From contig QIAP01000039.1 of NCBI GenBank assembly GCA_003225075.1, positions 1 through 64,000 on the forward strand: a stretch of 64,000 nt of DNA, given 5' to 3'. The position numbers and the translations under genes are program-made. The notes beneath the pieces were generated by a model. It was not told where the DNA came from. It searched no databases and was given only the letters and a program-made list of their open reading frames with translations. Positions 44,577 through 51,316 of the stretch are shown piece after piece (within the stretch, counting starts at the first letter, position 1; each line of letters opens with the position of its first letter). Origin of the DNA: Acidobacteriota bacterium (GTDB lineage Bacteria; Acidobacteriota; Terriglobia; Terriglobales; Acidobacteriaceae).

Positions 44577-47336
44577 TTACTGTTTAAGCATTTTCGAAAG
44601 GTAATAGTTGTCGTAAACCTTCGTGGTGCGGTCGACGAACTCCAGGATCTGTTGCAAGTTTGCGCGATCATCGCGGCTGCCCTCGGGGAATTTCATCGCA
44701 ATTCCGCAGCCCGGATCGGTGCGCAGCACTCTGGCTTCGGCCTGCATTTTGCCATCGTCCATGGAGAAGATCAGTTTGAGCTTTGAATCTGGTGGCAGGA
44801 GAGCGCTGGTTTCAACATAGCAGCCTCCCAGACTGATATTGGTCAGATTGCCGAGAATGGGAACCTTCTCGTTTTCGGGATGCAGTTCAATCGTGAGACG
44901 CCCCTTCAACCGCGGATAGAGTCTGCGGTTCTTCCGGCTTGGCTGGTTCTGCTTCTCGACGTACATTCGGCGATCCGCCTCAGCCAGGAGCTCCTCCGCA
45001 TCAAGACCATCGTCCGGATACACGGAGCGGCCTACGCTTAGAGACAAAATATCTTCATTGCAAACTTCTTTCCCGACCTGCTTCACCAATTCACGAAGGC
45101 TCTCGGCCTTCTTCAGGGCTGCGTCCGGAGTAAGTCCCGGCGCAATGACCACGAATTCATCGCCGCCCATTCGCGCCACGTAGTCGTATTCGCGGCAGGT
45201 TTCCTTAAGAGCATGAGAAAACAATCGCAGAACACGGTTTCCTTCGAGGTGTCCAAAGCGATCATTGATCTGCTTGAATCCGTCCATGTCCGAAACCATT
45301 ACCGTGAGGGACGAATTATCACGCTTACAGCGTGCCAACTCGCGATCCAGTTGCAGGAACAAGGAGCGCGCATTTGGCAGACCTGTGAGGTAGTCGGTGG
45401 TGGCAGAACTTTCGGCTTGCTGGTATTTGAGGGCATTCTCAATCGCCAATGCCATTTTGGAACTAATGGCTAACAACATGCGGAGATGGTCGGAGGTGAA
45501 CGCATCCTTCTCCCCGTGATACAGGGTTAGTACTGCTACTACCCCATCCACTCCTTCGAGTGGAATAGCCATCGCCGAACGCAAAGTGCTGAACTTTGTA
45601 GGATCGTTCAAATAACCGGGTTCAACCGAAGGATTGCCGTTGATGATAGGTTTCTTGTTTTGCGCGACCCACCCGGAAAGTCCTTGTCCCAGGGGTATGC
45701 GCAGTGAGGCAAACAGGCGGAAGTTATCGCCGCTGACGTGTTCTGGCAGAAGCTCGTTGTTGCGCCGCACGTAGATGGCAATGGCGTCGTAGGGGACCAA
45801 CCGTTTTAATTTGACGGAAAATACCGAGAGAGTTTCCCCCAAACTGAGTGATGCGCCCAGATCCTGGCTAAGTTCAAATAACGTCTGAGCCTCCTGCCGT
45901 GCTGCGGCAATGGAGGAGAGGAAGTTTGTCTCGTGCGGCTCCTTTGCGCCGATCTCTTCAAATCCTGCGGCGGGCGCAACATCACGGTCCACCTTTACCT
46001 CGGTAGTCAACTTCGACCAGGCAATCTGACCGGAGCTCTTCTCCACCAACTTCTCAAGATCCAGATAACTCCTCTTGAGCACAGTGACCACTTTGGGGTC
46101 AAACGACTTGCCGGATTCCTCTTCCAGGCGTTTCATCACCTCCTGCAATGGCAAAGCCCGCCGGTATTGACGGTCTGAAGCCATTGCATCCAGGAAATCA
46201 ACTGCTGAAAGAATGCGAGCCCCCATTGGGATTTCTTCATACTTGAGACCAAGAGGATATCCGCTGCCGTTCCACTTTTCGTGGTGGGCGCGGACGATTG
46301 GCACAACTGGATAGGGGAAACGAACGCGCTCGAGAATCTCCGCTCCTACCAGCGGGTGAATCTTCATCTTCTCGAATTCTTCCGGGGTAAGCCGTCCGGG
46401 CTTGGAGATTATGTGTTCGGGAACAGCCAGCTTGCCGATATCGTGCAGTAACGCTGCTGCATTCAACGCTTCCATCTCTTCGTGACTGACTTTCAGTGCT
46501 TTAGCCACTTCAATCGCGTACACCCGCACCCGTTGCAAATGATCGTGGGTAGTATGGTCTTTGGCTTCGATGGCCAGCGCCAGCGCTTCGATCGTGCGCA
46601 GGTGCAGGTTCGCCATGTCTTCAACGTGCCGCTTCTCATCCTCCAGTTTGCCAAGATAAAGCCGATAAGAGCGGTAAATCAGAAATACGACAGGGAGCAC
46701 TAGCAGCGAAGTCTGCCAATCGATGATGCTGTTTAGCCAGCTCATCAGGCCGGCAATTCCAGCACCCACAAGGTAATAGGGGAAAGACCAGAAGTAGCAT
46801 TCTGACCATATCTTGTTCAGTGACTTGTGCTCAGTGAGGGCGATGACAGTCGCCACCGGCACTGTGTTCGAAACAAAATACATCGAGGCGGTGAGCACCA
46901 GGAGGAACGATGGATTACTGACCTGACCGTGGAAAATGGCCAGGTGATAGACCGAGTACGCACAGGCAATCGCGAAAGCGGTCGCGCAAATATTGAAGAT
47001 GACTTGTACAGGCCGCGGTCGGTCGCGGTACAAACACTGCACCAGAATGGCTGCGCATCCCAGGGCCAAAGTCTCTCTGAAACTGAGTTGCAATACGCCG
47101 AGAAGAATGAAGAGAAAGTTGACTGACATCGTGCCCGTTATTCCGGGCAGGTTTACCTTGAGTCGTGACGCAACCACTGCCACCAGCGTGTAACAGATGA
47201 ACTTCAGAGGATCGCCGCTGGAATGATCTAGTGCGATCGCGTAAGCGAGAACACAAGAACCTGTAAGCACGATAGCGCCGATGAAAAGGTGCGCTGCCAG
47301 CGTCATCTGTTTCCAGGATTGTGACTGACCGGCCAT
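44577..47336 (-). CDS. Membrane HD-GYP / GAF / GGDEF / PilZ cyclic-di-GMP protein
   Basis: This 919-aa protein has six to seven N-terminal membrane helices (residues about 12-220). The HD-GYP domain at about 240-410 has HDIGKLAVPEHI and HHEKWNGSGYP, both metal/GYP motifs intact. A GAF domain lies at about 470-625. The GGDEF domain at about 640-795 has DYLTGLPN and ARMGGDEFVVI with GGDEF intact. A C-terminal PilZ domain has RRLYPRL and NISLGGCYVET. It therefore looks able to make, degrade and sense c-di-GMP. ATG at 47336 is chosen; in-frame TTG codons extend to 47372. Confidence 0.9.
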   Translation of the reverse strand: MAGQSQSWKQMTLAAHLFIGAIVLTGSCVLAYAIALDHSSGDPLKFICYTLVAVVASRLKVNLPGITGTMSVNFLFILLGVLQLSFRETLALGCAAILVQCLYRDRPRPVQVIFNICATAFAIACAYSVYHLAIFHGQVSNPSFLLVLTASMYFVSNTVPVATVIALTEHKSLNKIWSECYFWSFPYYLVGAGIAGLMSWLNSIIDWQTSLLVLPVVFLIYRSYRLYLGKLEDEKRHVEDMANLHLRTIEALALAIEAKDHTTHDHLQRVRVYAIEVAKALKVSHEEMEALNAAALLHDIGKLAVPEHIISKPGRLTPEEFEKMKIHPLVGAEILERVRFPYPVVPIVRAHHEKWNGSGYPLGLKYEEIPMGARILSAVDFLDAMASDRQYRRALPLQEVMKRLEEESGKSFDPKVVTVLKRSYLDLEKLVEKSSGQIAWSKLTTEVKVDRDVAPAAGFEEIGAKEPHETNFLSSIAAARQEAQTLFELSQDLGASLSLGETLSVFSVKLKRLVPYDAIAIYVRRNNELLPEHVSGDNFRLFASLRIPLGQGLSGWVAQNKKPIINGNPSVEPGYLNDPTKFSTLRSAMAIPLEGVDGVVAVLTLYHGEKDAFTSDHLRMLLAISSKMALAIENALKYQQAESSATTDYLTGLPNARSLFLQLDRELARCKRDNSSLTVMVSDMDGFKQINDRFGHLEGNRVLRLFSHALKETCREYDYVARMGGDEFVVIAPGLTPDAALKKAESLRELVKQVGKEVCNEDILSLSVGRSVYPDDGLDAEELLAEADRRMYVEKQNQPSRKNRRLYPRLKGRLTIELHPENEKVPILGNLTNISLGGCYVETSALLPPDSKLKLIFSMDDGKMQAEARVLRTDPGCGIAMKFPEGSRDDRANLQQILEFVDRTTKVYDNYYLSKMLKQ

Positions 47337-47746
47337 CCTCGCCAGCAACTCCTTTCCCGTCCGTCGACACAACGGCGGACTCCTAGCTCTAATAATTGAT
47401 ACCAGCTAAGTGACACATAGCAAAGGATTACCTCTTGGAACCCGAAACTTTCGTAACTTACAATTGGAGCCCTTCGGAAGATCAACCGCGGACAGCGGCG
47501 GACATAGTGTCCGCGGCTTCGACTGGGTCGTCCATCCTCTTGAAATCGAGCCATTTATACGCGGATCGGGGCAAGGATGAGCGCGATGGGGATACGGCTC
47601 ACTTGGCCACATTGTCCGTCGTCAACGAGTACCACATTGTTTTCAAAGCTATGATAATAAATGGTTTATTTATTTGTCCAACTTAGGCGAGCCGAATGCA
47701 CTGCTACTAGTGGAGCAACGGAGCCGAATTGCTTCGGAGAAGTGGA
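47337..47746. other. Divergent intergenic region with palindromes
   Basis: These 410 bases separate the HD-GYP operon from the subtilase gene. They hold CCGCGGACA/TGTCCGCGG (47486-47516, with a tighter GCGGACA-tag-TGTCCGC stem inside) and an AT-rich palindrome AATAAA-tgg-TTTATT at 47656-47670. Either could be an operator or a promoter element for the divergent units. No ORF is supported here. Confidence 0.4.
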
Positions 47747-49570
47747 ATGGGCCTGAAACCAAAACCCGAGAAAAGTGCTTTGAGTGCTCAGGTATCCACG
47801 GCCAAGTGGCACGTCACCCTGAAACTGATAGTCCTGGTCCTCGCCATTACGGTCTGGCATCCGCCAATGGGGGCGCAAAGCCATTGCAGGGCGAGGACCG
47901 CAACTCTCGTGGTACAGCCAAACTCTCTCCTGAACTTACGACATTGATATTAAAAGCGCAGCGTACCGGTTCCTCGAACGCACGGGTCCAGGTAATCGTT
48001 CAATTCCGTAAGAGCCCCACAATTGCTCACATTAAGAAAGCCACACGGTTAGGAGGAGTTCATGCCCAAACTCTGCGGCTGGTTCGCGCTGGAGTATTCA
48101 ATCTCTCGCTGAGCGCAATTCAGGCATTGGCAAAGGATCCTGAAGTCACTTACATCTCGCCCAACCGTACAGTTGGGGTTTCAAACGATTATTACGAACA
48201 AACGGTGGGCGGTGATATCGCCCACTCTTACGGCTGGGATGGCACTGGTATCGGCGTGGCGGTCATCGATAGCGGCGTCAGTGATCATCCCGATCTGTAC
48301 GACACCCGGCAGGTAAATTCACGCGTTGTTTACAGCCAAAGTTTTGTTCCCGGTAGTAGTGTTAGCGATGGCTACGGCCACGGTACGCACGTTGCGGGAA
48401 TCATCTCCGGTAACGGTTGGAGTTCTTACGGCACCATCTTCGGCGTCGCCCCCCAATGTCAACATCATCAACCTGAAGGTTTTGGACGGGAATGGAGCAG
48501 GTTCTGATTCGGGCGTGATCGCTGCCATCCAGCGCGCTATTGCTCTCAAAAGTACTTACAATATTCGCGTAATCAATCTTTCCCTGGGACGTCGCGTTTA
48601 TGAGAGTTATACGCAAGACCCGCTTTGCCAGGCGGTAGAGGTCGCATGGAAGTCGGGTTTAGTTGTAGTGGTCGCCGCCGGTAATTTTGGACGCGACAAC
48701 AGCACACATACCAATGGCTACGGAACTATCGCCGCCCCGGGCAATGATCCATACGTAATAACCGTTGGCGCAATGCGCACGATGAACACACCTCAGGAGT
48801 CCGATGACAGGATCGCGACTTACAGCTCCAAAGGGCCGAGCCTGGTTGACCACATTGCGAAGCCGGATCTGGTAGCACCCGGGAACAAAATTGCCTCACT
48901 CCTTTCCCAGGGCAGTACTTTAGAGCAAAAGTACCCTGGGGATGTACTCAATCCGATCACATACGGCGACTATAGCGGACAAGACAGCTACATCAAGTTG
49001 AGCGGCACAAGCATGGCTACTCCCGTCGTGAGTGGCGCTGCGGTGCTGATGCTGCAAAAAAGTTCCGGTCTCAATCCAGACGCGGTCAAGGCGCGACTGA
49101 TGAAGACCGCAGACAAGATGTTTCCGACACAATCCTCGACCTATGACCAATTCAGTGGCGTCACATATAGCGCACAATACGACATCTTTACCGTGGGTGC
49201 AGGCTACTTAAACATCCCTGCGGCGCTTTCGAACAATGACACCGTATCGGGCACAGCGATGTCGCCCGTCGCTGTGCGGAATCTCACGGGAACGGTTTCT
49301 CTGCAAGCCGACTCCTCATCGGTCTGGAGCAACTCGGTGGTGTGGGGCAACTCGCTGATCTGGGGCACTTCAGTCGTTTGGGGGAACAGCGTATTGCTCA
49401 ACGGCACTTCAGTGATCTGGGGCAGCTCCGTCGTGTGGGGCAACAGCGCGTTGGACGGGTGTAGCGTGATTTGGGGAAGTTCGGTGGTGTGGGGTGCCAC
49501 CCTGGGTGCAACCGATGCCGGCAGTGCGGCGGAGTCGATTGATGGAAGTGGTGACGACGACGGAGAGTAA
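47747..49570 (+). pseudogene. Secreted S8 (subtilisin-like) peptidase with WG-repeat tail; two apparent frameshifts
   Basis: The N-terminus from ATG 47747 (GGAGA six bases upstream) is a signal peptide (LKLIVLVLAITVWHPPMGAQ). The frame shifts near 47870-47885 (ATGGGGGCG) to the inhibitor-I9-like and catalytic frame: VQVIVQFRKSP, GIGVAVIDSGVSDHPD (Asp) and GHGTHVAGIISG (His). It shifts back near 48450 in a run of six C to PNVNIINLKVLDGNGAG through GTSMATPVVSGAAVL (Ser). About ten six-residue units of the type S-V-V-W-G-N follow, then an acidic end DGSGDDDGE. All catalytic residues are present once the frames are joined, so sequence error is a serious alternative to decay. Confidence 0.8.
49322..49497 (+). 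repeat. WG hexapeptide repeat array in the subtilase C-terminus
   Basis: About ten consecutive six-residue units follow the pattern Ser-hydrophobic-hydrophobic-Trp-Gly-(Asn/Thr/Ser), such as SVVWGN, SLIWGT and SVIWGS. Two units lack Trp (SVLLNG, SALDGC). At DNA level GTGTGGGGCAAC-type 18-mers recur with variation. The regular period suggests a beta-solenoid or surface-attachment tail. Confidence 0.75.
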
Positions 49571-49690: not shown

Positions 49691-49792
49691 ATGAAATCGA
49701 CAAAGAAAGCTGCGATAGTTGCATTCCTGATCACCGCCGCGGTGGTCGCGTTCAGCATCTTGTCAGCCGCTTCAGCCGTATGGGGCAGCTAG
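49691..49792 (+). CDS. 33-aa signal-peptide-like protein ending in VWGS
   Basis: The ORF has GAGAGGG eight bases before the ATG. It encodes a basic n-region (MKSTKK), a 20-residue hydrophobic core (AIVAFLITAAVVAFSILSA) and an AxA-type cleavage site (ASA). The last four residues are VWGS, followed by TAG. VWGS is the same motif that is repeated at the C-terminus of the subtilase encoded 120 bases upstream. Signal peptidase cleavage after ASA would free the tetrapeptide. Whether this is a peptide signal, a small membrane protein or a relic of a duplicated repeat is open. Confidence 0.55.
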   Translation: MKSTKKAAIVAFLITAAVVAFSILSAASAVWGS

Positions 49793-49982: not shown

Positions 49983-51002
49983 TTGCCCGGGGACTTCCGC
50001 GTCCACTCAATTGAAACCTTCGCGGATAGTCGCCCACTGATCTTTCTTTGCATGAAGCCAGCTACCCAAATGCAATTGGCCGACGGGACCATAGCCGTAG
50101 TTCGCAGCGAAATCATGCGCAAGCTCATGGCTATGGTGGAAAGAGTAGCCCGAGAGGAGGCTGCGGTTCTCATCATTGGTGAAACCGGCAGCGGCAAGGA
50201 ATTAGTTGCGCAAGCTATTCATCAGCATTCACTACGCTGTGGCAAGCCATTTGTTGACGTTAATTGCGCTGCCCTGCCGGAACACCTCGTCGAAAGCGAA
50301 CTCTTTGGCTATGAAAAGGGCGCATTCAGCGGCGCCGAAGCGACCAAGCCTGGTCTTTTTGAACTCGCGGACCATGGCACCCTGTTTCTCGACGAAATTG
50401 GCGAACTGGACGCGAAAGTACAGGCTAAGCTGCTGCGTGTGCTGGATGGAGTCGCTTATTATCGTCTTGGTGGCAGCCGAAAAGTAGCCGTGAATGTGCG
50501 GGTCCTTGCGGCAACGAATCGCGACTTGGAAACAGAGGTCCAGGCCGGAAAGTTCCGTCGAGACCTTTACCATCGACTCAGCCAATTCCAGTTACAGGTC
50601 CCGGCTTTGCGGGAACGTCCGGATGATATCGTGGCCATTGCTGAATACTTCCTCGTCCAGCAACTGCCTGAAGGCAAGTTTACAGTGGAAGCTTTGGAAG
50701 TGCTGCAACGCTATTCGTGGCCGGGCAACGTACGCGAGTTGAAGAATGTAATTTTTCACGCCGCGATGCACGTCAAGACCGGGATTAAGGAGATTCGTGC
50801 TTCCGACCTTCCGCCGGTGATATGCGGTTTTTCCGAACCTGGTACACCCGCGACACCTAGCGGAAACCTGGAAGAAGTGGAAAAACAAATGATTCTCCAG
50901 GCTCTCGCCCAGAGCGGTGGCAACCAACTGAAAGCCGCGCAGCAACTGGGGCAGACGTACTCAGTACCCTGCGGACCGAACAGCAGCGTTATTTCCGGGT
51001 GA
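49983..51002 (+). CDS. Sigma-54 enhancer-binding-protein-like AAA+ regulator
   Basis: The protein has 339 aa (316 if starting at ATG 50052). The AAA+ domain has Walker A GETGSGKE, the L1 loop [17 protein letters not shown] (GAFSGA in place of GAFTGA), Walker [12 protein letters not shown], the sensor region [12 protein letters not shown] and the [14 protein letters not shown] segment. No receiver domain precedes it. The Fis-type helix-turn-helix starts ([12 protein letters not shown]) but is then lost in [11 protein letters not shown] before TGA. The frame that continues into the next gene reads [11 protein letters not shown], so a one-base loss near 50948-50951 may have split an AAA+/HTH/PilZ fusion. 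Confidence 0.8.
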
Positions 51003-51316
51003 CGACCGAATTGCCCGTGATTATTAATCTAGACGGCGAACATATTGAGGCGAATACCGTAAACATCAGCTCTGGAGGGCTCGCCATACGTTGTCCAGTC
51101 ACTCTCACTCACGGCGCAACTATGGAAGTCTCATTCAAGCTGCCGGGAAGCGACTCTAACATCGAAGCCAACGCCAAACTGGCCTGGACCAGCCCCGGCG
51201 GATTTGCCGGACTAAGCTTTGACCAACTGCACCCCTCGTCGCAGCGCCACCTGCAACAATGGCTGTTTGCCGCAGCTCAGACCGACGGCCACACCGAAGC
51301 CGAACCCGTGCGCTGA
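50999..51316 (+). CDS. PilZ-domain protein or C-terminal part of the AAA+ regulator
   Basis: This is a 105-aa PilZ-like beta barrel with NISSGGLAIRC (the D/N-x-S-x-x-G motif) and a C-terminal helix. Its GTG overlaps the preceding stop by four bases. Reading the same frame upstream gives QQRYFRV, the usual PilZ entry (R-x-x-x-R with the first Arg replaced by Gln). The true domain therefore seems to begin inside the previous gene. Either translational coupling or a frameshifted fusion explains the layout. Confidence 0.65.
   Translation: MTTELPVIINLDGEHIEANTVNISSGGLAIRCPVTLTHGATMEVSFKLPGSDSNIEANAKLAWTSPGGFAGLSFDQLHPSSQRHLQQWLFAAAQTDGHTEAEPVR

Follow-up and report, generated by a model that had tools for sequence, protein, structure and literature searches.

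Genes of S8 subtilases that end in a string of W-G hexads are coupled in Acidobacteriota to genes of MASE9 proteins, either free-standing or fused to HD-GYP/GGDEF domains, and in some lineages also to the gene of a micro-protein. We describe the C-terminal tail of the protease as an array of a short linear motif that is conserved and predicted to be disordered, and the linkage of these proteases to MASE9 points to a membrane partner. The combination of protease, MASE9 protein and, sometimes, micro-protein suggests an undescribed signalling cassette. Searches that covered open-access papers showed no description of the WG-tail/MASE9 assembly and no study of MASE9, and those on hexad repeat strings, on S8 proteins with WG tails in Acidobacteria, on peptide signalling in Acidobacteria and on sensor folds showed no description either.

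The subtilase gene and its hexad tail

The window, that is, the whole stretch of DNA analysed, comprises 64,000 nucleotides from an Acidobacteriota bacterium, and the region around the protease gene contains the following features (numbers preceded by L are our locus labels).

44577–47372, minus strand: MASE9-HD-GYP-GAF-GGDEF-PilZ protein, divergent from the subtilase (Pfam; MASE9 24.9 bits, above cut-off in the genome search)
47674–48507, plus strand: N-terminal part of the S8 subtilase with pro-region, Asp and His motifs (PF00082, E 7.6e-12)
48455–49570, plus strand: C-terminal catalytic part of the S8 subtilase (Asn and Ser motifs) and tail (PF00082, E 1.9e-36; tblastn with the L122 S8 protein)
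49316–49498, plus strand: WG tail of ten hexad units, seven of them with W-G, ending the S8 subtilase (translation, shuffle test, relatives)
49691–49792, plus strand: micro-ORF of 33 codons, a hydrophobic segment followed by C-terminal ASAVWGS (blind pattern test; dN below dS in related pairs)
49983–51002, plus strand: sigma-54 activator with AAA+ and HTH_8 domains (Pfam; tblastn with the L122 protein)
50999–51316, plus strand: PilZ part of the sigma-54 regulator in another frame (Pfam PilZ, E 6.9e-15)

The subtilase of the window is split over two frames and is not one intact ORF. The second-frame ORF, in which the Asn motif, the Ser motif and the tail are found, extends from 48326 to 49570, the frameshift lies near 48455 and the break falls at a run of six C near 48450–48455; it may be a sequencing error or a mutation. 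In relatives, the gene is a single frame of about 550–660 codons. The IDSG, HGTH and GTSM motifs could be read from the translations of the window copy; the N-terminus of the WG-tail proteases is signal-peptide-like as judged by hydropathy. The protein shares with S8 subtilases (PF00082) a catalytic domain that bears the Asp, His, Asn and Ser motifs; it differs from them in the W-G hexad tail, which corresponds to no listed domain, and in the MASE9/c-di-GMP neighbourhood. A second frame break was seen at about 50950, in the sigma-54 activator/PilZ gene; in the relative L122, subtilase and regulator are each a single ORF. Because both the subtilase and the sigma-54/PilZ gene are split, the window copy may be damaged or may carry sequencing errors.

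Translation of the tail gave the units SSVWSN, SVVWGN, SLIWGT, SVVWGN, SVLLNGT, SVIWGS, SVVWGN, SALDGC, SVIWGS and SVVWGA. The first-pass annotation of the window had described about ten WG units at the end of the subtilase, two of them without Trp, in a strict six-residue period. The ten units and the two Trp-less ones were borne out (one further unit has W-S instead of W-G), but the period is less strict than claimed, as nine units are of six residues and one, SVLLNGT, is of seven. The lag-6 identity of the tail amounted to 25 matches, a value that was reached by none of 100000 shuffles, the best of which gave 20. The Ser codons come from the TCN as well as the AGY set, and all four codons are used for Val and for Gly, therefore the repeat reflects a conserved protein sequence and not fresh DNA slippage.

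The same annotation regarded the tail as no standard protease-associated domain and as a possible solenoid or ligand-binding surface that might anchor the protease or act as its substrate-like tail; for a surface or an anchor, the MASE9 linkage would suggest a partner in the membrane. The first view was upheld by searches with the relatives L095 and L165, in which only PF00082 exceeded the Pfam cut-off, with no hexapeptide-repeat match, and NCBIfam returned S8 models only, all below their cut-offs; a known WG or hexapeptide domain found no support, as no Pfam or NCBIfam model matched the tail of these two. The solenoid did not gain support from the AlphaFold2 model of L095 (69 sequences), where the protease was predicted confidently, while the tail was foldless (pLDDT about 33–43) and was not docked on the protease. 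This is one monomer prediction of a repeat, with which folding on binding is compatible. A tail both disordered and unconserved had been named as one of the outcomes that would speak against the proposal; disorder is indeed predicted, but the conservation is strong. Left-handed beta-helix hexapeptide repeats (PF00132) likewise repeat every six residues and carry a Gly behind the key hydrophobic residue; the WG tail differs in that Trp stands where they have a small aliphatic residue, and it gave neither a Pfam match nor a predicted fold.

WG tails in the phylum and their MASE9 neighbours

WG tails occur in 55 of 396 Acidobacteriota genomes (a phylum-wide sample) and in 11 of 61 relatives, with the window's genome counted in. 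The window's genome has five of them: four of its five PF00082 genes are WG-tailed and one further tail lies on a contig-end fragment. The best 80 loci by score from a scan of named genomes, taken from a longer list in which other phyla are possible, were nearly all titled Acidobacteria or member taxa. One locus, L173, is from the culturable Granulicella aggregans and has a WG-tail S8 gene. Locus L143 is titled Nevskia soli, a gammaproteobacterium by its name, and carries a WG-tail S8 gene and a MASE9-HD gene among Acidobacteriota-like sequences; the genome is possibly mislabelled. When 30 phylum-wide loci were read, all three S8 motif patterns were present in 19 and at least one in 28, the other two being short fragments.

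The consensus of the tail unit is S/N/G/A - V/A/I - V/L/I/M - W - G - T/S/D/N. Among 789 W-G units over 109 tails (counts slightly inflated by likely duplicate loci across two collections, L042/L130 and L047/L123), where W and G were fixed by the counting rule, position 1 was S in 534 units, position 2 was V in 396 and A in 292, position 3 was V in 465, L in 175 and I in 89, and position 6 was T in 270, S in 227, D in 108 and N in 93. The W-W spacings were multiples of six in 578 of 680 cases, and each gene tends to repeat its own version of the unit. Very long uniform arrays with at least 17 W-G units per frame were seen in distant Acidobacteriota families (L068, L071, L074, L078, L090 and L091), with units such as TLVWGD, RIIWGD, QALWGD and TATWGD. 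In four S8 genes that adjoin MASE9 (L203, L204, L206 and L209), the hexads contain W-S-D or W-A-D instead of W-G (ALLWSD, AALWSD, TLLWSD, GIAWSD), and these arrays of the wider phylum rule out an invariant W-G. Tandem pairs of WG-tail subtilase genes were noticed at L051, L058, L110, L132, L140, L162 and L202, with a micro-ORF between the two genes in the last case.

The divergent neighbour of the window subtilase contains the stretch HHEKWNGSGYP, as in HD-GYP domains, and a GGDEF motif, both read from its translation. Its MASE9 match stayed below the cut-off in a search of the window only (E 2.3e-4, 21.6 bits), and the curated cut-off of PF20972 was passed by three of the four genes of the window's genome. 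All four of these MASE9 genes adjoin WG-tail S8 genes. Over the 396 genomes, a WG tail is found no more than 5 kb away from 26 of 131 MASE9 genes, versus 0.35 expected at random placement, and MASE9 is present in 39 of 55 genomes with WG tails against 37 of 341 without them, a comparison uncorrected for kinship; the profile search for MASE9 gave no match in the remaining 16 of the 55. The free-standing MASE9 protein of L095 has no Pfam match, yet it aligns with the MASE9 family.

The neighbours were compared with S8, MASE9, HD-GGDEF, sigma-54 and PilZ queries. By tblastn, 34 of the 103 WG S8 genes that could be tested were followed 3′ on their own strand, at no more than 400 nt, by a free-standing MASE9 gene. 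A MASE9-HD gene was present at a distance of up to 5 kb for 43 of 109; of these, 25 were divergent upstream and 15 lay 3′ on the same strand. By these criteria, 72 of the 109 WG S8 genes have one or the other MASE9 type nearby and 37 have neither. In the 39 genomes with both WG tails and MASE9, 22 of 64 WG S8 genes are near MASE9 versus 8 of 86 other S8 genes, among the matches listed. When these eight were read, W-(G/S/A) repeats, regular or loose, were found in seven and none in one. Free-standing MASE9 genes were absent from all loci with A-type tails, but a link between the type of hexad and such genes was set aside, as it could not be separated from kinship (2 to 0 pairs, p 0.5).

The model of a free-standing MASE9 protein (pLDDT 88.8) was compared with known structures, and the first 22 VIA-align rows were ECF S components or CbiM/NikM, with Z from 13.5 to 9.4 over 152–189 aligned residues; values lower than about 13 may be frequent for helical bundles in general. 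The next row was Lnt with Z 8.0, below which the rows were left out, and the Foldseek E-values were weak (best 0.033). MASE9 is thus predicted to have an ECF S-component fold with a six-helix core. Charge counts in 25 MASE9 sequences suggest that the conserved hairpin, like the N- and C-terminus, faces the cytosol, which would be the reverse of the side of the extracellular S-component loop; a periplasmic ligand pocket is thus no more than a possibility. Partipilo and Slotboom treat the S-component fold as a ligand-binding receptor fold and describe it in 5TMR receptors, GGDEF fusions among them (PMC11109136). MASE9 resembles 5TMR-LYT receptors and ECF S components in the predicted six-helix fold and in the GGDEF fusions, and it differs in being a separate family (PF20972) with an apparently cytosolic hairpin, often free-standing beside a protease.

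The micro-ORF

In total, 15 micro-ORFs of 33–43 codons were found that end in ASAVWG(S/N/G), one with an extra Cys; export of their products was judged from hydropathy alone. When 1.24 Mb from 103 loci were scanned in six frames, 13 short ORFs were obtained that combine a hydrophobic segment with a W-G close to their end. Nine of them, from 8 of the 103 loci, have the ASAVWG(S/N/G) end, and all nine adjoin an S8 gene on its strand; the other four lack this end. In the flanks of 114 S8 genes, 12 signal-like micro-ORFs of any kind were counted, 9 of which were of the ASAVWG type. When the pattern was searched in 399 genomes of the class blindly to S8, 15 matches were obtained, of which 7 were ends of signal-like ORFs. 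All seven, the window's one included, adjoin S8, versus none of the eight other matches. The six further loci obtained in this way have W-hexad tails, and five of them show the order micro-ORF, S8, MASE9.

The shared end of the micro-ORFs is encoded by synonymously different codons, and the stops differ, too. In all five pairs with defined dS, dN was below dS (dN/dS 0.044/0.346, 0.181/0.368, 0.299/0.924, 0.320/2.75 and 0.361/1.32), and for one more pair dS was undefined. The distribution of the micro-ORF on the S8 tree requires at least four changes, and the window protease clusters with L122 and L128, both bearing a micro-ORF, and with L107. The constant ASAVWGS of the micro-protein contrasts with the variable local tails (SIIWGN, SVVWGQ), thus there is no close covariation. 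In the longer, upstream type of micro-ORF the ASA site lies well past the hydrophobic segment, because of which a membrane-held display of one unit by the micro-protein appears as likely as its release.

A protein search with the micro-ORF returned only the window itself below E 0.5, and library searches gave no family name; such a search is too insensitive for a short hydrophobic peptide, therefore DNA patterns were used instead. AVWG(N/S) matches at L059, L062, L063 and L064 were rejected as chance, having no hydrophobic segment; the one at L063 (G006:C35:7488-7505) may belong to a 16-residue ORF ending in VAVWGN, which is probably fortuitous as well. A W-G pattern (e.g., SAAWGKR) was also seen within the first 110 residues of 25 of the 109 S8 proteins (L007, L047, L115 and L172 included), mostly just before the hydrophobic signal segment and, in both L058 proteins, after it. 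None of the seven micro-ORF loci from the named scan or the window is among these 25.

Possible roles of the hexads

The motif is common to the protease and the micro-protein (by pattern also to the N-termini of 25/109 proteases), and this sharing and the MASE9 linkage agree with a cassette of motif and receptor that would feed c-di-GMP. We tentatively prefer the view that the hexads form a motif array which a MASE9-based c-di-GMP sensor would recognise or for which they would be released, with considerable doubt, since the 37/109 WG S8 genes lacking a nearby MASE9, the 16/55 WG genomes without a MASE9 match, the rarity of the micro-ORFs, the apparently cytosolic hairpin, the lack of close covariation and the kinship behind the hexad-type association count against it. 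If the tail were instead an anchor or a structural element, its hexads would fold on contact with the envelope, into stacked strands or a beta solenoid, and keep the protease attached to it, and the MASE9 link would mean shared regulation only. The six-residue spacing of the tryptophans, the long uniform arrays of distant families and the likeness of x-[VA]-x-W-G-x to the left-handed beta-helix pattern agree with such a role, which we nevertheless consider rather unlikely given the foldless AlphaFold2 tail, the unmatched hexapeptide-repeat families and a single-unit micro-protein that it leaves unexplained.

The hexads could also fill the active site or the pro-region of their own protease until they are cut off, with the micro-protein as a small inhibitor or substrate. 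Protease, tail and micro-protein lie side by side with a common motif, and the N-terminal W-G of the 25 S8 proteins would suit such autoregulation; but in most of them it precedes the signal segment and would thus be on the cytosolic side, the AlphaFold2 tail was not docked and the MASE9 linkage finds no explanation, which make this improbable in our view. Cross-beta stacking of tail and micro-protein hexads with mutual seeding, as in amyloid-like signalling motifs, would accord with beta-branched, uniform, six-residue units and with the unit on the micro-protein, but the constant Gly and the frequent Asp and Asn are not amyloid-specific, and we consider it very unlikely.

Peptide signalling outside the Gram-positive pheromone families is a further, unlikely reading. 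In it, the tail would store many copies of a pheromone, the micro-ORF would encode a pre-pheromone with one copy that releases VWG(S/N), and MASE9, free-standing or fused to HD-GYP/GGDEF, would be the receptor converting the peptide into c-di-GMP. The Phr propeptides of the Bacillus Rap systems (RRNPPA) include tandem pheromone propeptides (PMC11343458). The likeness consists in a small pre-protein whose N-terminal segment is hydrophobic and whose C-terminus is short and conserved, in multi-copy precursors and in the involvement of exported proteases (PMC11343458); the differences are that the repeats here are on the protease itself, that the host is Acidobacteriota, that the candidate receptor is a membrane protein and that a mature peptide is hypothetical here. 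The novelty lies in the gene setting of S8 WG tail, MASE9 and micro-ORF, while protease-linked peptide or motif signalling itself is of a known kind.

Acidobacteriota are abundant in soil, and little is known about their signalling. In the preferred MASE9-sensor reading, the MASE9 protein would recognise the hexads, either on the intact protease or as cut-off peptides, the micro-protein would supply one hexad unit, and recognition would alter c-di-GMP turnover, a change that the sigma-54/PilZ regulator might carry to transcription. If this is true, a single motif, four to six residues long, links a protease, a micro-protein and a membrane sensor, MASE9 gains a testable ligand and c-di-GMP comes under the control of a motif accessible by peptide synthesis.

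The homology of the window's sigma-54 activator to that of L122 starts at 50052, and its frame is broken near 50950. Activator and PilZ form one ORF in L043, L107, L122 and others, and the activator recurs near WG-tail S8 genes, PilZ-fused in several cases. Downstream of the regulator, on the opposite strand, the minus-strand segment 51416–52120 encodes a 235-residue DUF5818 protein with a hydrophobic N-terminus and a Ser/Pro/Thr-rich stretch.
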